A stretch of 42,835 nucleotides of DNA from Candidatus Gastranaerophilales bacterium (lineage in GTDB: Bacteria; Cyanobacteriota; Vampirovibrionia; Gastranaerophilales; Gastranaerophilaceae). The number at the start of each line of letters is the position of its first letter. Within the stretch, counting starts at the first letter, position 1. The position numbers and the translations under genes are program-made. The notes beneath the pieces are model-generated. The model searched no databases. It saw nothing but the letters and a program-made list of their open reading frames with translations, and was not told where the DNA came from. The stretch covers positions 1 to 42,835 of the forward strand of contig CALUVH010000015.1 of NCBI GenBank assembly GCA_944324175.1. The letters run 5' to 3'. Below, piece after piece: positions 25,502 through 42,661 of the stretch.

Positions 25502-26857
25502 ATGGACAATGTTAGTACTTGGGCAGAAAAAGATTTAAAATACATATGGCATCCTTGTTCTCAAATGAAGGACTATGAAGAATTACCACCAATAGTAATT
25601 GAGCGTGGCAAAGGGATAAAACTTTTTGATGTAAACGGGAAAGAATACTACGATGTTGTAAGTTCTTGGTGGTGTAATCTTTTGGGACATTGTAATCCTC
25701 GAATTAATGCTGCTGTTAAAAAACAGATTGACACACTTGAACATGTTATTTTTGCTAATTTTTCTCATAAACCTGCGATTACTTTATGTGAAAAGCTTTC
25801 AAAGGTCCTTCCCAAAGGGCTGTGTAAATTTAATTTTGTTGATAATGGTTCCGCGGCAATAGAGGCAGCTATGAAAGTTAGTTTTCAATATCATGCCCAA
25901 ACTGGTAACCCTCAAAAGAAAAGGTTTATGGCTTTATCGGATGCTTACCACGGGGAAACTATCGGAGCTTTGTCTGTTGGAGGGGTTGATTTATACTCGG
26001 AAATTTACAAGCCAATATTGCTTGATATTGCAAGAATAGAAGGTCCTGATTGTTACAGGTGTCCTTATGGAAAGTGTCGTGATAATTGCAGTTGTGAGTG
26101 TATTGAAAAAGCTGAGAAAACTTTTGAGAAATTTGGTAATGAAACTTGCGCATTGCTTGTGGAACCTCTTTTACAAGGCTCTGCTGGAATGCGAGTTTAC
26201 CCGCCTTTGTATTTGAGAAAGCTCAGGGAATTGTGTGATAAGTACAATGTGCATTTGATTGCCGATGAAATTGCAACCGGTTATGGTAGGACAGGAAAAA
26301 TGTTCGCTTTTGACCATGCAGGTGTTTCACCTGATATTATGTGCCTTTCTAAAGGGCTTACTGGCGGATATATGCCTATGGCAATTTTTGTAACGACTCA
26401 AAAAATTTATGATGCGTTTTATGCAGATTACAATGAAGGTAGGGCGTTTATGCATAGCCATACTTATAGTGGTAATCCTCTTGCTTGTTCTGCAGCTATT
26501 GAGGTTTTAAATATACTTGAAGATGAGAATATTATAGAAAAAGCGCAAGAAAAGGCAATATATTTCAATCGTATTATTAAAGAAAAATTCCTTTTACATG
26601 AAAATGTCGGTGAGGTACGCTCAATTGGTTTAATTAATGCTATTGAATTGGTTAGAGATAAAATAAATAAAATACCTTTTGATAGTAAACTTAGAACTGG
26701 GTATCAGATTTACAAAAAAGCACTACAAAAGGGTGTCCTCTTGCGACCTTTAGGGGACGTTATTTACTTTAATCCGCCGCTAATTATTACCCCCGAAGAA
26801 ATGGATTTTGTTGTAAATGTAGCCTATGATTGTATGACAGATGTGCTAGGACGCTAA
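25502..26857 (+). CDS. bioA: Adenosylmethionine-8-amino-7-oxononanoate aminotransferase
   Basis: A 451-residue class-III PLP aminotransferase that makes DAPA from KAPA using S-adenosylmethionine or lysine as amino donor. Visible are WHPCSQMKDY at the N-terminus, SSWWCNLLGH, the substrate-lid DNGSAAIEAAMK, the PLP-contact DEIATGYGRTGK, and the Schiff-base lysine in CLSKGLTGGYMPMA near 285. A Cys-rich stretch near 180-200 (CYRCPYGKCRDNCSCEC) is an elaborated form of a segment common in this group. The ATG at 25502 is chosen because the ATG at 25496 leaves only two bases after AAGGAG. It is coupled to bioD. Confidence 0.94.
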   Translation: MDNVSTWAEKDLKYIWHPCSQMKDYEELPPIVIERGKGIKLFDVNGKEYYDVVSSWWCNLLGHCNPRINAAVKKQIDTLEHVIFANFSHKPAITLCEKLSKVLPKGLCKFNFVDNGSAAIEAAMKVSFQYHAQTGNPQKKRFMALSDAYHGETIGALSVGGVDLYSEIYKPILLDIARIEGPDCYRCPYGKCRDNCSCECIEKAEKTFEKFGNETCALLVEPLLQGSAGMRVYPPLYLRKLRELCDKYNVHLIADEIATGYGRTGKMFAFDHAGVSPDIMCLSKGLTGGYMPMAIFVTTQKIYDAFYADYNEGRAFMHSHTYSGNPLACSAAIEVLNILEDENIIEKAQEKAIYFNRIIKEKFLLHENVGEVRSIGLINAIELVRDKINKIPFDSKLRTGYQIYKKALQKGVLLRPLGDVIYFNPPLIITPEEMDFVVNVAYDCMTDVLGR

Positions 26858-27212
26858 AAGACAACACCACATAAGTCTATACATTAATAATGTACAAACT
26901 ACACTTTATAAAACTCATAACCATCTTCTTTGGTAAAATAATCGGACAAATAAACTATTCAATGAAACAATTTTTAGTTTCTGACGTCTATGTTCGTAGG
27001 ATTAACCTTCTGTTGTAAGTTCTTCCCAGATGCTAGGAACAACGATTAAAGCAGTGTAAACGATAAATCCGAACAAGATTAAATTGATAGCTTCCATGAC
27101 GAAATTCTCCTAAATGTTTACAATTATATTATTCCCTTATAGTAATATTTTGTAACATATTTTAAAGAAAATTTTAAAAAGATTATGATACAATTCAAAG
27201 AAAGAGTGATTT
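26858..27212. other. Intergenic region holding one microprotein gene
   Basis: 355 bases between bioA and the zinc-ribbon gene. 27002-27097 (minus) encodes a 31-residue membrane microprotein, described separately. No RNA gene or clear terminator is visible in 26858-27001. 27098-27212 is AT-rich and must carry divergent promoters. Confidence 0.6.
27002..27097 (-). CDS. 31-residue single-span membrane microprotein
   Basis: On the minus strand an ATG at 27097 opens 31 codons ended by TAA (27002-27004). The start sits seven bases behind TAGGAGAA, one of the better ribosome sites in the window. The peptide begins MEAINLILFGFIVY, forms one hydrophobic helix of about 20 residues (5-24), and ends with an acidic tail (WEELTTEG). 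The shape is that of the small subunits of membrane complexes. I cannot match it to a named photosystem, cytochrome or transporter subunit. It is isolated: flanking genes are on the other strand. Real translation is likely but unproven. Confidence 0.7.
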   Translation of the reverse strand: MEAINLILFGFIVYTALIVVPSIWEELTTEG

Positions 27213-27524
27213 ATGAAAAAGAAATTAAAATATTTGTTTGAAAATTTGTGCTGTTCTCAGTGTAAAAATGGATTTGATGAAGATTCTATAGAAATCAAGC
27301 GTGAGGAAAGCGGGCTTTTGGTCACACATTTGACTTGTCAAAAGTGTGGAAAATCTTTTGGAGTAGCTTTTGTAGGGTTATCAAATATAGAATTGAAAGA
27401 TAATAAAAACTTAGCACTAGAGGTGCAAGACGGACCAGATGCGATTAGTTATGATGATGTGATTGATGCTCATAGATTTATTCAAAATCTGGATTCTGAT
27501 TGGCATAAGTACTTACCAAAGTGA
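27213..27524 (+). CDS. Small zinc-ribbon protein
   Basis: A 103-residue protein. Two knuckles, CSQC (about 14-17) and CQKC (about 46-49), are separated by a beta-rich stretch (SIEIKREESGLLVTHLTC) and fit a zinc ribbon. The acidic C-terminal half ends YDDVIDAHRFIQNLDSDWHKYLPK, which looks like a separate helical motif. No DNA-binding or enzymatic motif beyond the ribbon is visible. The function is unknown. It is monocistronic, with an AT-rich promoter region shared with the divergent microprotein gene. Confidence 0.75.
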   Translation: MKKKLKYLFENLCCSQCKNGFDEDSIEIKREESGLLVTHLTCQKCGKSFGVAFVGLSNIELKDNKNLALEVQDGPDAISYDDVIDAHRFIQNLDSDWHKYLPK

Positions 27525-35732: not shown

Positions 35733-36287
35733 ATGGGAACCAATGAAGTAAAAAAATATATTTATGATTATTTAATAGATAAATTAATTGAGAATTTCCC
35801 ACGGTATTTCCAGTTAATGGAACGTGTTGATTATGAAATTTTTTGGGGACAACTTAGTGATTTAATTTCAGATAAAATATATGTAACAATAGTTGATAAG
35901 CGAATTTCAAAGGTAGGTAAACGCTATGAAGAATACTTGAAAAACGGAAAGTATTACCGTAGAAGAACAAAAAAAATGTTTGTTAATTTCGAAGTATATG
36001 TTCAGGCGTCTGAGGATTTTTATCATAAAGCTGATTTTGCTACTGTTGAAGTTATTGAATTTATTGAATCGCTTTTTACCGAAACTCAAGAAACATTTAA
36101 CTTTTTTTTGCAAAAAGGGATTGTAATTAAAGAATTAGAAGCGTCTGATATTAGGGATTTTAGTAGGCTAAATCTAAAGACGCAAGAATTTAGAAAAGAA
36201 ATTGAAATTCCTTTTGAATATGAGGAAATATTTGAATATATTCCAGAGTTTGGTAATGATTTAGAAACTGATATTAATGTATTGTAG
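35733..36287 (+). CDS. Tail terminator (neck)-like phage protein
   Basis: A 184-residue acidic protein with several aromatic-rich helices and strands (MFVNFEVYVQASEDF). Its size and its place directly before the sheath gene match tail-completion/neck-terminator proteins of contractile tails (LIC_12616-like group), which cap the tube and sheath at the head-proximal end. No sequence motif is decisive, so the assignment is largely positional. In a capsid-less particle the same protein would form the cap. Ribosome site GTGAGGG, five bases before ATG. Confidence 0.55.
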   Translation: MGTNEVKKYIYDYLIDKLIENFPRYFQLMERVDYEIFWGQLSDLISDKIYVTIVDKRISKVGKRYEEYLKNGKYYRRRTKKMFVNFEVYVQASEDFYHKADFATVEVIEFIESLFTETQETFNFFLQKGIVIKELEASDIRDFSRLNLKTQEFRKEIEIPFEYEEIFEYIPEFGNDLETDINVL

Positions 36288-36337
36288 TTGTACTACAGTT
36301 TATTATTGTGCGTACTTTTAAATGAAAAGGAGAACTG

Positions 36338-37477
36338 ATGAGCATTTATGATGACTTAGTAAGTATTCTTTTTAAACTTCCTGATGGGCGTAGTTTAGAA
36401 GAATATTTCAAAAATGTACTTTTGGTCGGGAAATTTTCAGAGCTGGATTTTCAGCCTGAGGTTGAATTTCCTGAGTGTGGGGTAAAAAAATACTCTTCTT
36501 ATGATGAGGTGATTACAGATTTTCTACCAACATCTCAAATTGCATTGGAAGCTAATGCAATTTTTAATCAGAAAAATAATACACAAACCACTTCACAAAT
36601 TATGTATTTGATTGTGACTCAACAACAGGAGGAAGAGACTGTATCTCAAGCTCTTGATAGGGCAAGAACTTATGATGGTCGTTTTGCAAAGGTTGTTCCA
36701 GTATCAAGGGAGGCAGATGATGTCAAGGATGCGGCTCAATGGTGTATGACAAATGACAGATTTTGTGATTTTGCAATTACTGACATTTCAGCTGTTGAGG
36801 ACATAATTGCCGCTGAAAATAATTATGCTTATGCAATTTTCAGAAAAACTAAAAATGATCCGATAGCTTCAGCTATAGCATCGACTTCTACTTGCGGGTA
36901 TTTTGGTGGAAAAGATGGTTCGGCTCAATTTACTCAATTAATAGGAGTGCTGCCTGAAACTTATACCGGTAGTGAGATTTCAGACATGAAGTCTAAAAAT
37001 GTTGCTTTTTATACGAATGTATCGCCTATCGAAGGTGGTCAAACCGACAGTTTCGGATATAACTGGGTGATTGGTTCCAGAATGCTTGGAGGTGAGCTTA
37101 GACAACGTCAAATGATTATGCATTACATCAAAAAATCAATTGGCTTAATGGCGTTAGAATTTTTTAACCAAAAACCGGTATATGATGAAACCGGAAATAA
37201 TTTACTCTTGTCTATGGCTCAAAAACGCTTTAGAAATTTTCAGACTTATAATCTTGTAATTCCGACAAATAATTTACAAACAGGTTTTGAATTAAATGTG
37301 ACTCCAATAAGAGTTGGTGCAGATAGTATTATGAATACTGATTTGGATGCTTACAATGCTAAAAAGTTTAAACTTACAGGATACTATTATGATTCTATTG
37401 TCGGTGAAAAGGTCGATTTCACGTTTTATGTTGATCCTTCAGATGAACAAATTGAACAAATTTTAGGTGATGAATAA
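36338..37477 (+). CDS. Contractile tail sheath protein, DUF3383 type
   Basis: 379 residues, in the size range of DUF3383 phage sheath proteins. The N-terminal half has the alpha/beta arrangement typical of sheath domains. The middle has FAITDISAVEDIIAAENNYAYAIF followed by AIASTSTCGYFGGKDG and the NVAFYTNVSP stretch, the segment order of the DUF3383 family. The C-terminus, QTGFELNVTPIRVGADSI then a final beta hairpin, would supply the arm that links subunits. It is followed by the tube gene, which is the standard order. Ribosome site AAAAGGAGAA. Identification rests on family pattern and gene order together. Confidence 0.82.
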   Translation: MSIYDDLVSILFKLPDGRSLEEYFKNVLLVGKFSELDFQPEVEFPECGVKKYSSYDEVITDFLPTSQIALEANAIFNQKNNTQTTSQIMYLIVTQQQEEETVSQALDRARTYDGRFAKVVPVSREADDVKDAAQWCMTNDRFCDFAITDISAVEDIIAAENNYAYAIFRKTKNDPIASAIASTSTCGYFGGKDGSAQFTQLIGVLPETYTGSEISDMKSKNVAFYTNVSPIEGGQTDSFGYNWVIGSRMLGGELRQRQMIMHYIKKSIGLMALEFFNQKPVYDETGNNLLLSMAQKRFRNFQTYNLVIPTNNLQTGFELNVTPIRVGADSIMNTDLDAYNAKKFKLTGYYYDSIVGEKVDFTFYVDPSDEQIEQILGDE

Positions 37478-37513
37478 TTTTAGGTGTTAAAAAGTCCATA
37501 GGAGAGATTAAAA

Positions 37514-37894
37514 ATGACAGTTTATGATAGTAAGAATATTGAGTTTACTTGGCGAAATCTTACATTGACAGGTACAGGAGATGAGTATGCGTACAGTATA
37601 ACCCAGCAAGGTGATAGTATCCAAGCGTACAAAGGAGTTCAAGGCGAGGGGTTAAATATTATAAATAATCAGCGCAGTTGGCTAATTTCCAGAACTTTTA
37701 AAGCGGATAGCCCATGTTTACCTGCTTTAATTGAAGATAATATGAATTTTATTGAGGATACTTTAGTCGTTCGTGACTTAAATACTGGTATATCGGATAC
37801 TTTTACTGATTGTGTAATTTTAAACATATCGGGAGAACAGGATTCCAAGACGAGAACAGTTACTTGGAGTGCTTTATATAGAAATGGCCGATAG
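37514..37894 (+). CDS. Tail tube protein, DUF3277 type
   Basis: A 126-residue beta-rich protein. Features of this small-tube family are TWRNLTLTG near the start, EDTLVVRDLNTG in the middle and RTVTWSALYRNGR at the end. It should form hexameric rings stacked inside the sheath. It lies directly after the sheath gene and before a hairpin and the tail chaperone, as in many myophages. A second, clearly related protein occurs at 41859-42236. Ribosome site TAGGAGAG. Confidence 0.8.
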   Translation: MTVYDSKNIEFTWRNLTLTGTGDEYAYSITQQGDSIQAYKGVQGEGLNIINNQRSWLISRTFKADSPCLPALIEDNMNFIEDTLVVRDLNTGISDTFTDCVILNISGEQDSKTRTVTWSALYRNGR

Positions 37895-37910
37895 TTATGC
37901 CAAAAGGCTG

Positions 37911-37939
37911 CATGGTGAGGCTTTTTAAGCCTTGCCATG
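37911..37939 (+). other. Strong hairpin between tube and chaperone genes
   Basis: CATGGTGAGGCTT pairs with AAGCCTTGCCATG (13 pairs including two G-U) around a TTT loop, 17 bases after the tube stop codon. The T tract behind it is short. It could lower expression of downstream assembly genes or protect the abundant sheath-tube mRNA. Its right arm resembles the hairpin at 13244-13274. Confidence 0.65.
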
Positions 37940-37981
37940 TATGTTTTTGAGAAAAATATTGTGATGAATAAGGAGAACTTT

Positions 37982-38452
37982 ATGGCAATTCAATGTACGG
38001 TTAATGGACGAGTATATTCTACTGCGCCGTTATATTTTGAAGATTTTACCACACTCGGAGTGATTACAGAGGAAAAAATCTACCCTTTGTTAATGGTGTT
38101 GTATGCTTGTATGAAAAATAATTTCGATGAAGTTGAATTATTTAGACTTTTATACACAGCAAGCCGTGAGGCGTTTAATCGAGATGATTTAAGATTGATA
38201 TCTAACTTGGTATTGAATAGAGAACACCTGTTGATAGATGGTAAAAAGCTTGATAAAGTTGAATGGGAAAAACACTGGCAAAGTGTTGGTTTTGTTGAAT
38301 ATCGCGTTGTTGTGATAAAGTTTGTTGAGGCAAATCTTGGAAATTTTACGAGTTTGTCTGCGCTGATTCCACAGTTGCAGACAGAGGAGTTAAAGAGTTA
38401 TATAACAAAGATTTTGCCAATCTTATTTCTAGGTCTAAACGTTCAAAAGTAG
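37982..38452 (+). CDS. Tail assembly chaperone, short form (G-like)
   Basis: 156 residues from the ATG at 37982, eight bases behind AAGGAG; a further-upstream in-frame ATG lacks a ribosome site. The protein has a small beta N-terminus, then helices (LLMVLYACMKNNFDEVELFRLLY), with no membrane span. It lies between tube and tape-measure candidate, the fixed place of tail assembly chaperones. These are typically made in two forms by a ribosomal frameshift, and a suitable slippery heptamer occurs at 38341-38347. Function is inferred from position, size and the frameshift architecture. Confidence 0.75.
   Translation: MAIQCTVNGRVYSTAPLYFEDFTTLGVITEEKIYPLLMVLYACMKNNFDEVELFRLLYTASREAFNRDDLRLISNLVLNREHLLIDGKKLDKVEWEKHWQSVGFVEYRVVVIKFVEANLGNFTSLSALIPQLQTEELKSYITKILPILFLGLNVQK
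38341..38347 (+). promoter_or_regulatory. Programmed -1 frameshift site, A AAT TTT
   Basis: The heptamer AAATTTT is in the X XXY YYZ register relative to the chaperone frame (codons AAT 38342-38344 and TTT 38345-38347). Slipping back one base joins the chaperone to an open -1 frame that runs to 38640. The -1 frame is closed upstream by TGA at 38326-38328, so a slip must lie between there and the zero-frame stop at 38450. No other canonical heptamer is seen in that interval. Confidence 0.72.
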
Positions 38453-38640
38453 AAATAGAAAGACATGTTATATCAAGCATATTAAGACTTACGGCTTCAA
38501 ACAGAGCTGCTCAATTAGGATTTACGTATTCTGAAATTAAGCATATGTCTGTAAAAGAAATATGGGTTCTGCAAAATGAGATAAAAAAACGACTTCAGCA
38601 AATGAATCAAAGTATTCATTGTAGCAGGTCAAAAAGGTAG
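38347..38640 (+). CDS. Tail assembly chaperone, -1 frameshift extension (T-like)
   Basis: 97 codons in the -1 frame relative to the chaperone, ending TAG at 38638-38640, eleven bases before the next gene. The frame has coding character: helical, charged, and ending in MSVKEIWVLQNEIKKRLQQ. It fills what would otherwise be a 190-base gap. It has no ribosome site or start of its own (the first in-frame ATG, 38545, is unsupported). The slip at 38341-38347 would give a ~219-residue fusion of 122 chaperone residues plus this extension, equivalent to lambda gpGT or its myophage counterparts. It probably recruits tube subunits to the tape measure. Confidence 0.7.
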   Translation, partial: YEFVCADSTVADRGVKELYNKDFANLISRSKRSKVEIERHVISSILRLTASNRAAQLGFTYSEIKHMSVKEIWVLQNEIKKRLQQMNQSIHCSRSKR

Positions 38641-38650
38641 GGATTAGAAA

Positions 38651-39715
38651 ATGGAAGAAAAATTATTACAGGAGCTTATTGTAAAATATGATGAAGAGGT
38701 TGAAAAAATTGTCCGACATTACTCGAGTCAAAAATACGTAAATAATTCTAAGTCTTATGACAATCAGAAGTCTATTGAAAATCCTATAATAAATCAATTA
38801 TCAGAAAAAGCTTTGTCTTTATATTTAAAATCTGATTTGAGTGAGGAAATTGATTTTATTGATAACTTACAAAAAGATTTAGTAATAAATTATAAGGAAG
38901 CATTAAAAAGTTATTTAAATGATTTTTATCCGCTAGCAAAAGAGATTGGTTTTAATAAAGATACTACTCATAAATTAGCTAGCGAGATTTTTAAATCAGC
39001 TGCTAAAAATAATATTAAGTCTGATATCCTTCAGGGGGTTATATCTGAAATTGCCTTAACTCAAGAGAATATACCTTCAGAGAAAAATTCTGCTTCCGTT
39101 TTAGATATGCAATTTGATAAAAGTATCTCAAAAAAATTGCTTTCGAAATCTAATAAAGCAGCTTATAGCTCAAAAGATTTATCCGGTTTAATATCGAGTT
39201 ATATCTCTAATTATGTAAGGAAAGTTGCAAAATTACCTGTATTATCAAGTTCAAATGAGGTGATTTTTGCAGATGCCTCTGAAAATTACGAAAGTAATGC
39301 CTTCTCCAATAACATAGCTGCTAAATACATTACAGATGCAGATCTAAAATCGAAAAAAAATACAGCATTGAACTTTCCTTTTTCTTTGTTTCAGAAAAAT
39401 ATATATAGGAGGATTGGTATGTTTTCTCCATCCTCCTTTTTTGAAATGGGGAGTTATTTAGATTTGCAGCCAAAAGGGGATTTGCCTCTAATAACTGATA
39501 ATGCTCAGGAAAGTATGGAAAATTTATTGTCTGAAAATGTAAGGCTTACAAATGAAAGTATAGAGCAGGCTGACTTGGAGCAAAATGAGGTTAGGGAAAT
39601 TTCCCAAAATTTATACTCGTACTCTCAAGCTGATATAGAAAATCAGATTAAAGAAACTATGATAAATATTTTTGAAGATTTTACAGATTTAAAAGGTTTC
39701 AAAACTGTCAAGTAA
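38651..39715 (+). CDS. Putative short tape-measure protein
   Basis: 354 residues, mostly helical, rich in Ser, Lys, Asn and Glu. No enzyme motif or clear transmembrane segment is present. Its place, directly after the frameshifted chaperone and before the baseplate genes, is that of the tape measure, which sets tail length. At 354 residues it would be short: the usual rule of about 1.5 angstrom per residue predicts a tail near 50 nm. No homologous motif was recognised, so the call is positional. Ribosome site GGTAGGGA. Confidence 0.55.
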   Translation: MEEKLLQELIVKYDEEVEKIVRHYSSQKYVNNSKSYDNQKSIENPIINQLSEKALSLYLKSDLSEEIDFIDNLQKDLVINYKEALKSYLNDFYPLAKEIGFNKDTTHKLASEIFKSAAKNNIKSDILQGVISEIALTQENIPSEKNSASVLDMQFDKSISKKLLSKSNKAAYSSKDLSGLISSYISNYVRKVAKLPVLSSSNEVIFADASENYESNAFSNNIAAKYITDADLKSKKNTALNFPFSLFQKNIYRRIGMFSPSSFFEMGSYLDLQPKGDLPLITDNAQESMENLLSENVRLTNESIEQADLEQNEVREISQNLYSYSQADIENQIKETMINIFEDFTDLKGFKTVK

Positions 39716-39796
39716 AGTAGGTTTATATTGTTTAAGACTATTTTTAATAGTTATTAGTAAAAAATGGAAATCGTTGAAATAGATAGAAAGGCACTT

Positions 39797-40114
39797 ATGA
39801 AAACATACAGTTTACCGAATTTGCTGATCAATCCGAGTATAAGGTTGGTGTACATAATAAATAATAAGCAATATACATTTTCATTTAGGTGGTTGAGTAA
39901 TTTTTGCCATTTGTCAATTTATCAAATAAAAGATAACAAGCAGATCTATCTGGTTAAAGGTCGGGCGATTACGCCAAATACAAACTTGATAGAGCGTGTT
40001 AACGACAATAGCTTAATCTGCGGACAACTAATCATAAAAAATAAGTATGGACAGGATGTTGAGATATCAAGATATAATTTCCATACCGATTTTGAAATGG
40101 AGTATTATGAGTAG
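39797..40114 (+). CDS. Baseplate plug-like protein
   Basis: 105 residues from the ATG at 39797, five bases behind AGAAAGG; the upstream ATG at 39764 has no ribosome site. The order of beta strands fits the small baseplate-plug proteins of contractile tails: a QYTFSFRWLSNFCHLSIY segment, a VKGRAITPNTNLIERV segment, then LICGQLIIKN. The protein would close the hub lumen around the tape-measure end. Its stop lies inside the start of the hub gene (ATGAGTAG), so translation is coupled. Confidence 0.65.
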   Translation: MKTYSLPNLLINPSIRLVYIINNKQYTFSFRWLSNFCHLSIYQIKDNKQIYLVKGRAITPNTNLIERVNDNSLICGQLIIKNKYGQDVEISRYNFHTDFEMEYYE

Positions 40115-40928
40115 TAATTATTTGAACTTTGATTTTATCATAACCACCTTGGAAGAAGATATAACGATTGATAATCTCGATGTGGAATTTGATATTTGTA
40201 AAAATAACAAACTAGAATCTAACAGAGCCTATTTGAATATCTGGAATTTGAGCGATGTAAAGTATAATACTTTAATGGAAAAAGATGTTATGCTGAATAT
40301 AAGCATCAGTTTTGGAGGCGAAGATCCGACACTATTATTTTGCGGAAAGTTAGATCGAGCACGGGTCAAACGAGGCAGACCTTGGAATCGTGTTGATGTA
40401 GCCAATAGGTTTATTTTAATTGACGGTGCAGATGCTTTTTGTAAGTTTATAAACAAAAATTATCGAGAGCAGGTGAATTCAACTAAAATTATACAGGATT
40501 GCATATCTTTAATGGGAGCAGGCAGTGGCAGGATAAGTGAAAATTTACCAATTCAACAGTATGAAAGTTATAAATTGTTAGGTTATCCTCAGGATGTGCT
40601 TGAAAAAATTTGTACGCCTCTAGGTATAAGTTTTAGTATCCAAAATAATTTGGTAGATGTAATATCTCCATTTGAGGTATTTCAGGGTGGAGATGTCCCC
40701 ACATTTAATGCTTCAAATACGTTAAAACTTAACAACTCAGGAAAAGATGAAGTGACAATAACAACTGGGCTAACTTCTTTGGTTAACCCAAACGACTGGG
40801 TCGAATGTGATTATGAAGATTTAAAAGGGGTATTTCAGGTAAACCAAGTTCGACATTATGGAAACAATTATGGGAAAGTTTGTTTAACAGAGATAACGGT
40901 GGGGTATAAAATCAGTGGTCAGAAATAG
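40107..40928 (+). CDS. Baseplate hub protein (gp27/gpD-like)
   Basis: 273 residues from the ATG at 40107, which overlaps the plug stop codon; GGAG lies just upstream. The first domain (EFDICKNNKLESNRAYLNIWNLS, LLFCGKLDRARVKRG) and the TKIIQDCISLMG to YPQDVLEKICTPLGISF segment follow the pattern of phage late-control D/Mu gp44-type hubs. A final beta domain (ITTGLTSLVNPNDWVECDYEDLKGVFQVNQVRHYG) matches the typical hub C-terminus. It would form the trimeric ring holding the spike. It overlaps the spike gene by 14 bases. Confidence 0.75.
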   Translation: MSSNYLNFDFIITTLEEDITIDNLDVEFDICKNNKLESNRAYLNIWNLSDVKYNTLMEKDVMLNISISFGGEDPTLLFCGKLDRARVKRGRPWNRVDVANRFILIDGADAFCKFINKNYREQVNSTKIIQDCISLMGAGSGRISENLPIQQYESYKLLGYPQDVLEKICTPLGISFSIQNNLVDVISPFEVFQGGDVPTFNASNTLKLNNSGKDEVTITTGLTSLVNPNDWVECDYEDLKGVFQVNQVRHYGNNYGKVCLTEITVGYKISGQK

Positions 40929-41481
40929 TAATGATGTATTAAATGATGTTATAAACGGAATTAGTTCAGCAATACTTGTGGAAAAGCCATGCAAAATCAT
41001 TAATATACATTCACAGTATTGCGTGGATATAGAATACTACGACAATAACGTAGCTGATTGTTTGTACAAAGTACCTGTAAAGCACATACAAACCTCAAAG
41101 GCTTATGTATATTTGGGGCTAAGCGTAGGCGACAGAGGTACGGTGAGATTTTTTGACACTGACGTATCGAACTATAAAAGCGGCAGTAGCAAAACAGGAG
41201 GAGCCGTAAGACGACACAATATAAATGATAATATCTTTACTTGCGGCTTTTATCCCTCACCGTCCCAGTATTTGTTTCCTAGTGGGGATGTTGTCATAGG
41301 TACAACATCAGGAGCTCAGATAAGTATTTCAGGCAATGAGGTTGCTATAGTTGGTGGAAGTATTTCAATAACTGGTGGTACAGTGACACTTGATGGAAAT
41401 ACGACGATAGATGGTAAGGTGTTTTTGGAACATACGCATTCAAATGGAAACGAAGGCAGTCCGACAGGTGCAGTGATTTAG
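40915..41481 (+). CDS. Baseplate spike protein (gp138/gpV-like)
   Basis: 188 residues from a GTG at 40915, with GGTGGGG upstream. Residues about 20-90 fit an OB-fold domain of the Gp138 spike group (VDIEYY, YVYLGLSVGDRGTVRFF). Residues 130-170 are a short beta-prism or helix (ISISGNEVAIVGGSISITGGTVTLDGN). The end carries HTHSNGNEGSPTG, whose His pair could bind a metal at the spike tip. It would pierce the target envelope. It overlaps the hub gene and is followed closely by the W-like gene. Confidence 0.78.
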   Translation: MVRNSNDVLNDVINGISSAILVEKPCKIINIHSQYCVDIEYYDNNVADCLYKVPVKHIQTSKAYVYLGLSVGDRGTVRFFDTDVSNYKSGSSKTGGAVRRHNINDNIFTCGFYPSPSQYLFPSGDVVIGTTSGAQISISGNEVAIVGGSISITGGTVTLDGNTTIDGKVFLEHTHSNGNEGSPTGAVI

Positions 41482-41489
41482 GAGGGAAA

Positions 41490-41834
41490 ATGACAGATAT
41501 AAAAATGGAAAACAACCGTTTGGTAATGCAAGACGGTGATTGGGTAATTGTAGAAGGTGTGGATATGGTAAAACAGCATATCATTGTGGCATTGAATACT
41601 TTTTACAAAGACTGGATTTTGGATTATACAAAAGGGGTAGATTACGCCTATGGAATGCGTAATACAGAGTTTTTGGAATACGATGTCAAACGTCAAATTT
41701 CAGGTGTAGATGGTGTGAATTCAATAAGCGATTTTTCGCTTTCATTGAACCGTGCTGACAATTCAGTGCAGATAACTGCTGTTGTTAAAACCGCTTATGG
41801 CAACATTAATTTGCAAGAAAATATTTACAGATAA
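41490..41834 (+). CDS. Baseplate gp25/W-like sheath initiator
   Basis: A 114-residue protein of the gp25-like family that nucleates sheath polymerisation on the baseplate. It shows the expected opening beta pair (NNRLVMQDGDWVIVEG), the helix VKQHIIVALNTFYKDWILDYTKGVDY with the conserved start of the family core, and the closing strands. A strong TTAGGAGGG ribosome site lies three bases before the ATG. In contractile tails the next gene is usually the large J wedge; here a second tube-like gene follows. Confidence 0.8.
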   Translation: MTDIKMENNRLVMQDGDWVIVEGVDMVKQHIIVALNTFYKDWILDYTKGVDYAYGMRNTEFLEYDVKRQISGVDGVNSISDFSLSLNRADNSVQITAVVKTAYGNINLQENIYR

Positions 41835-41858
41835 ATGAATAAATAGGAGAAATGATAA

Positions 41859-42236
41859 ATGCCGATATATAACATAAGAAATACTGAACTTGTATGGCGT
41901 GGGTTGACAATGACAGGTTTTTCAGATGTAAAAATTTCATTAGGTTCAGATAGGTTAAGTAACATTCAGGTGATTGGAATATCAGGTGAGTGTTTTGTGC
42001 ATCCAAATCCTTCTAGAATATGGGTCATATCATCAATGTTCAACATAAACAGTTTGAGCTACCCTATTTTGGAACAAGACAATCTGGATAATGTCGAAGA
42101 TACGCTGATAATAAGAGATTTAAATATCGGAACAACAGACATATATACAAAGTGTACCATAATGTCAATAACAAATAACCAAGATAATTATTTCAAGACT
42201 GTTACTTGGCATGCAATTAAACGTAACGGCAGATAA
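41859..42236 (+). CDS. Second tail-tube-like protein (paralog of 37514-37894)
   Basis: 125 residues, clearly related to the tube protein at 37514: WRGLTMTG against WRNLTLTG, VEDTLIIRDLNIGTTDIYTKC against IEDTLVVRDLNTGISDTFTDC, and KTVTWHAIKRNGR against RTVTWSALYRNGR. It diverges most at residues 20-60. Sited after the W-like gene, it may be a tube initiator that joins hub to tube, or a variant tube. Ribosome site TAGGAGAAA. The sequence relation is certain; the special role is inferred. Confidence 0.78.
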   Translation: MPIYNIRNTELVWRGLTMTGFSDVKISLGSDRLSNIQVIGISGECFVHPNPSRIWVISSMFNINSLSYPILEQDNLDNVEDTLIIRDLNIGTTDIYTKCTIMSITNNQDNYFKTVTWHAIKRNGR

Positions 42237-42279
42237 GAATATTTTTATAATAATGTGATTTAGGTGGTGATTCTTTGTG

Positions 42280-42661
42280 ATGTCAAAAAGTTCTATGTTC
42301 AATTTCAATAGAATTAACAGGGCATATAGCAAGTGAAAATCTTGAAATATGGTCGATGTGTGATTTCGCATCAAAAATTGCTGACGCGCAGGCAAGCAGC
42401 AAGAAGGTATGCCTAAGGATAGGCAAAACTATATATGAAAATTGTACTATTAAAAGTAACACGATTACCGTAAAAAATATTTATGATACATCATTTGTAT
42501 TGCAAGTTAACTATAAACATGAGCCATCCAATCCTACCAAGTCACAACAAAAGAAAACTAGTACAATTAATTTGGAAGATAAGAATAGCGGGTTTAAGGG
42601 CAAGGTAAAAAAATTTTTTTGTAAAGAAAAGAATGGTGGTATTCAAGGACCTAAGTCTTAA
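42280..42661 (+). CDS. Small tail-cluster protein with a broken reading frame near its start
   Basis: The frame ending TAA at 42659-42661 is open back to 42281 but has no start there; its first internal ATG (42356) gives 101 residues with no ribosome site. An ATG at 42280, behind AGGTGG, is in another frame that stops after 18 codons. Removing one base from the A5 run 42285-42289 joins the ATG to the long frame, giving a ~126-residue protein beginning MSKVLCSISIELTGHIASEN. The downstream part has CLRIGKTIYENC and a Lys-rich C-terminus. The function is not recognised. Either a real or sequencing indel, or frameshifting, must be invoked. Confidence 0.5.

Follow-up and report, generated by a model that had tools for sequence, protein, structure and literature searches.

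A conserved 31-residue, predicted single-helix membrane microprotein in one family of Gastranaerophilales

The stretch of DNA analyzed here (hereafter, the window; 42,835 nucleotides of contig CALUVH010000015.1, from a Candidatus Gastranaerophilales bacterium) contains an open reading frame of only 31 codons. We asked whether this frame is a gene, how widely it is distributed, and what a protein of this size may do in a non-photosynthetic relative of the cyanobacteria. The features of the locus are as follows.

27002..27097, minus strand: gene for a 31-residue, predicted single-helix membrane microprotein, ATG to TAA (tblastn-type and profile matches, selection counts, AlphaFold2)
27105..27112, minus strand: Shine-Dalgarno sequence TAGGAGAA, separated from the microprotein ATG by 7 bases
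27128..27156, minus strand: promoter-like site, GTTACA - 17 - AATAAT, upstream of the microprotein gene
27213..27524, plus strand: gene for a zinc-ribbon-like protein of 103 residues, divergent from the microprotein gene, with CxxC...CxxC and a His in its C-terminal DDVIDAH

The frame runs from 27097 to 27002 on the minus strand and encodes the peptide MEAINLILFGFIVYTALIVVPSIWEELTTEG, and the plus-strand reading of the same interval is interrupted by stops. The initial annotation had placed a small gene at exactly these coordinates, with a strong, correctly spaced ribosome site, one transmembrane helix and an acidic tail. All of these hold, the strand being minus: TAGGAGAA lies 7 bases before the ATG, and a hydrophobic helix is followed by the tail WEELTTEG. 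Relatives carry AGGAG-type sites at the same place as the Shine-Dalgarno sequence. At the place of the promoter, their upstream sequences show a recurrent TGTTAM, about 15 bases and then GGGNATAATATA (consensus read by eye). We rejected a regulon sharing this promoter because the genome of the window has four sites of the pattern versus two for the reversed control, and these adjoin unrelated genes. In some loci (L048, L049, L054, L056, and L057) the 5' leader is longer, and what looks like an inverted repeat, possibly an RNA control element, separates the Shine-Dalgarno sequence from the conserved promoter. A non-coding RNA at the locus itself was rejected, as 26800-27300 gave no Rfam match up to E 1.

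The initial annotation had staked its claim on conservation of the frame in close relatives, to be checked by tblastn and synonymous substitutions. Among 56 distinct core loci, the 28 with an identical peptide comprise 27 different DNA sequences, with 12 differences on average and 23 at most. Over 53 aligned loci, the numbers of variable sites at the three codon positions are 12, 5, and 28. Nei-Gojobori counts for 1378 pairs of these gave a pS of 0.611 and a pN of 0.042 (pN/pS 0.068), and dN/dS is about 0.034, with dS near saturation. Stops are present in four of the other five frames in 48-53 of the 53 loci, and in the fifth in 41. The 27 DNA versions of one peptide, together with the low dN/dS, argue that the frame is translated and under strong purifying selection. 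The claim thus survived both checks, with the frame conserved in close relatives.

In the tblastn-type search, 41 of 59 relatives had a match to the microprotein at E <= 1. We treated the matches in G013, G035, G038, G044, and G055 as chance, and G013 has a true copy elsewhere. The identical 31 residues were found in 11 genomes including that of the window, some of them from other genera. Agreement on this scale greatly exceeds what chance would produce. When 382 genomes of the class were scanned with a profile built from 25 variants, 322 matched at E <= 1. By hand count of this listing, 272 of the 276 genomes in the family of the window matched at E <= 1 and 265 had a homologue at E <= 0.0035, mostly as one strong match per genome. 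The remainder are 7 genomes with weak matches and 4 with none, and a rescan of 9 of these 11 revealed nothing at E <= 0.01. Two genomes of a sister family (f7) matched at about 6e-12. The other 48 matching genomes of the class had E >= 0.0199 and were treated as chance, leaving no credible homologue beyond the two families among the 382 genomes.

Sampling more widely gave the same picture. A profile of 36 variants, run over 292 genomes sampled across the phylum, matched 126 genomes of the window's family, and outside that family only one weak stretch within a 369-residue frame. A DNA pattern for FGFIVY[TAS]AL was detected in at least 114 stretches of 84,980 species genomes. Among the 114 listed, the profile recognizes the microprotein in 103, L242 is an incomplete true copy, and the other ten belong to unrelated proteins or frames; the record titles of these stretches, where informative, mostly read 'Candidatus Gastranaerophilales' or 'Melainabacteria'. 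On the genomes searched, the microprotein appears confined to a single Gastranaerophilales family and its sister family.

In the one IMG/VR hit (contig L331), the microprotein and zinc-ribbon genes lie together next to phage-like genes and a frame resembling a reverse transcriptase, and the pair looks like the host flank of a prophage. Given this, and the lack of any tblastn match to the microprotein in plasmid and phage collections, a phage or plasmid gene was rejected.

Comparison of 36 members with Pfam (24736 models) and NCBIfam (18950 models), using filters that drop weak matches, and with PHROGs revealed no convincing match. The best were weak (E 0.002-0.03) and under every curated cut-off existing for them. 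Among the papers listed in literature searches, none was a relevant report on small proteins of Gastranaerophilales or Melainabacteria. Judged by these searches, the microprotein is absent from the family libraries and represents a new family of predicted single-pass membrane microproteins.

AlphaFold2, run from the single sequence, modeled one helix over residues 2-30 (mean pLDDT 94). Across 43 variants, Y14 and P21 are invariant, and L6, F9, G/A10, and E/D25 nearly so, giving the motif LxxF[GA]xxxYx6PxxxE. L6, F9, G/A10, P21, and E/D25 lie on the same helix face as Y14, and the conservation is helix-periodic, its moment at 100 degrees being reached by 130 of 20000 shuffles. Lys and Arg are distributed very unevenly in the 43 variants, with 0 before Y14 and 66 from P21 on. 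Positively charged residues flanking membrane helices are known to favor the cytoplasmic side (the positive-inside rule), so this suggests an N-out/C-in topology. The C-terminal tail contains a His in 30 of the 43 variants, though not in the window's own copy. There is also a form of 44-54 residues with a conserved tail, EEF...YF.HL...NS.G[KR] (L111, L114, L117, L119, L122, and L125); several loci of this form have GAAAGCGAGG directly before the start codon.

Codon usage provides an indication of expression level. Of the 10 two-choice positions in the window's microprotein, 8 have C-ending codons. The NNC fraction for the 56 loci together is 342/572, which 3 of 479 neighboring genes reach. Because composition in the window is biased by strand, with clearly more C-ending codons in minus-strand than in plus-strand genes, the test was repeated against same-strand neighbors. 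With amino acids matched, 202 NNC codons of 426 were observed where 114.5 were expected, and 32 of 41 loci were above the same-strand expectation. The excess is found mainly in the core lineage and is weak or absent in several deep lineages (G009, G010, G034, G041, G046, G243, G248, and G276). For EF-Tu of the same genome the NNC count is 51/95, and the two genes beside it have fractions of 0.30 and 0.18. The codon usage of the microprotein thus looks EF-Tu-like, which suggests that it is highly expressed and abundant.

Taken with its near-universal presence in the family, the single confident helix, and the recurrent promoter and Shine-Dalgarno sequence, these features are consistent with an abundant single-helix protein, specific to this lineage, that serves a larger membrane protein as accessory subunit or regulator, which we regard as the probable identity of the microprotein. 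The general kind, a small single-pass membrane accessory protein, fits what was found: a short open reading frame, one hydrophobic helix, and purifying selection. The resemblance to a small subunit that the initial annotation had remarked on is borne out to that extent. In the proposed mechanism, a translated and probably abundant single-pass microprotein would sit in the inner membrane, most likely N-out/C-in, its conserved face (L6, F9, G/A10, Y14, P21, and E/D25) would pack on a larger integral membrane protein, and the docked helix would act as a stabilizing or regulatory small subunit.

KdpF and AcrZ-type microproteins are single short helices that dock on larger transporters. The microprotein is likewise a single short helix, but it has no Pfam or NCBIfam match to them, including no match of any of the 36 members to a KdpF model (with filters that drop weak matches). 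In addition, a transporter gene does not adjoin it in most of 41 loci compared (the window and 40 fetched loci, hand-picked with one to several per genus).

The conserved face would be equally expected from a helix that assembles with itself, i.e., an abundant homo-oligomer that shapes or stabilizes the membrane with no foreign partner. A small residue at position 10, Y14, and P21 on one face would suit such packing, as would the strong expression signature from codon bias, although the same observations fit docking to another protein, and we consider self-assembly rather unlikely.

Another candidate partner is encoded next door. The initial annotation had described the gene as isolated among unrelated neighbors, which is not the case for the divergent gene at 27213-27524: a zinc-ribbon gene adjoins the microprotein in 34 of the 41 loci, the sister family included, and where both genes occur in one stretch they are on opposite strands in 87 of 87. 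CxxC...CxxC and the His are invariant in this neighbor. Other neighbors vary. Downstream genes differ between genera (bioA, for example, is no more than 4 kb away in 15 of the 41 loci), and no operon of the microprotein with a membrane complex was found in the 41. In the window, the downstream neighbors are a presumed bioA and bioD and, by Pfam, a peptidase M16 and a nucleoside transporter. Farther away (35733-42661, plus strand) is a gene run recognized by eye as resembling a contractile phage tail or tail-like particle, with a sheath-like protein of 379 residues at 36338, likewise recognized by eye, and two similar proteins of 125-126 residues (37514-37894 and 41859-42236, plus strand), both opening W-R-x-L-T-x-T-G and apparently paralogues.

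The zinc-ribbon protein itself had only insignificant zinc-ribbon or Yippee-like similarity in Pfam, PDB, and Foldseek (best Foldseek E 0.22). It resembles the Trm112-like and Yippee-like zinc-ribbons in its two CxxC pairs and by weak sequence and fold similarity, but differs in having no significant family or fold match. Outside the microprotein families, its gene is beside a presumed enolase-like gene and a second gene opening ...YQLVWWLLEQD in family f8 (L174-L182), and beside a presumed thioesterase-like gene and a presumed phosphoribosyltransferase-like gene in f9 and f15.

If the zinc-ribbon protein were the partner, the microprotein would anchor or sense it at the membrane, and their divergent adjacency amid variable neighbors argues for this. 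The two genes are separable, however. Of 382 class genomes, 266 have the zinc-ribbon, some of them in families that lack the microprotein. In 30 loci from other families, we recognized no convincing microprotein upstream of the zinc-ribbon, so a distant homologue at that position was rejected. Conversely, no zinc-ribbon was detected at E <= 0.001 in the listed genomes of five genus-level groups (g21, g24, g26, g29, and g52), although these carry the microprotein, and in G014 the zinc-ribbon is located elsewhere in the genome, away from the microprotein. A shared divergent promoter space can by itself hold such a pair together, and we judge this partnership unlikely. As for the genomes with neither gene, at least five of six checked (G158, G165, G183, G205, and G289) also yielded no bioA at E <= 1e-50, and those assemblies may simply lack the entire locus.

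Components of the Sec machinery were also considered. A substitute for SecG was rejected, as each of the 17 genomes compared encodes a canonical SecG at another place. A second reading is that the microprotein replaces the SecDF accessory protein YajC by a transmembrane helix alone. It draws on the YajC helix being the sole match of the family profile among PDB chains (E 3.7 and 2.6), with F-G-x-I-x-Y common to both, and on the lack of any YajC above the cut-off in all 17 class genomes. These E values, above 1, are at chance level, and the YajC model (PF02699) does not match the microprotein. The distribution is also unfitting, with no YajC above the cut-off in microprotein carriers and in families without the microprotein alike. 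The microprotein has no cytoplasmic, soluble domain, and its proline is offset by one from that of YajC. A YajC stand-in is thus very unlikely.

The initial annotation had also raised a leftover or repurposed photosynthetic subunit, which did not stand: apart from the one weak stretch in a 369-residue frame, there is no homologue beyond the family in the 292 phylum genomes, and no match to a photosynthetic small subunit in Pfam, NCBIfam, or PDB, and neither homology to a photosystem or b6f small-subunit family nor presence in photosynthetic relatives was found. Melainabacteria genomes, as described in the excerpted text of PMC3787301, have no photosystems, b6f, or respiratory complexes. CydX, in the excerpt of PMC4325964, is likewise a protein of about 30-37 residues with one short helix, few conserved residues, and a conserved E/D at position 25, but its motif there, YxxWxxGx15E/D, does not occur in the microprotein alignment. 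The absence of cytochrome bd from the 14 carriers tested (subunit I, CydA, in 0 of 12 genomes of the family and 0 of 2 of the sister family; controls matched in 10 of 14) excludes CydX. With size and a single helix as the main likeness, a remnant small subunit from photosynthesis or respiration (PSI, PSII, b6f, or CydX) is most improbable.

We therefore return to an accessory helix that would dock on a larger membrane protein. Cyanobacterial NDH-1 contains single-helix subunits. A lineage-invented counterpart of these, in which the microprotein would be an obligatory, lineage-specific subunit of an ion-pumping complex I-like or NiFe-hydrogenase-like complex, is a more specific proposal that we hold to be doubtful. 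These bacteria are fermenters that depend on ion-pumping complexes. The membrane machines that the excerpted text of PMC3787301 names include a membrane pyrophosphatase, an oxaloacetate decarboxylase, and an F-type ATP synthase, besides an 11-subunit complex I-like enzyme and the NiFe-hydrogenase-like complex. Each of these is a candidate partner.

A gene of 31 codons, of a size often skipped by annotation pipelines, is thus near-universal and strongly constrained in a family of common gut bacteria. If the microprotein is an accessory subunit, it would mark a membrane machine with a composition not yet fully described for this lineage.
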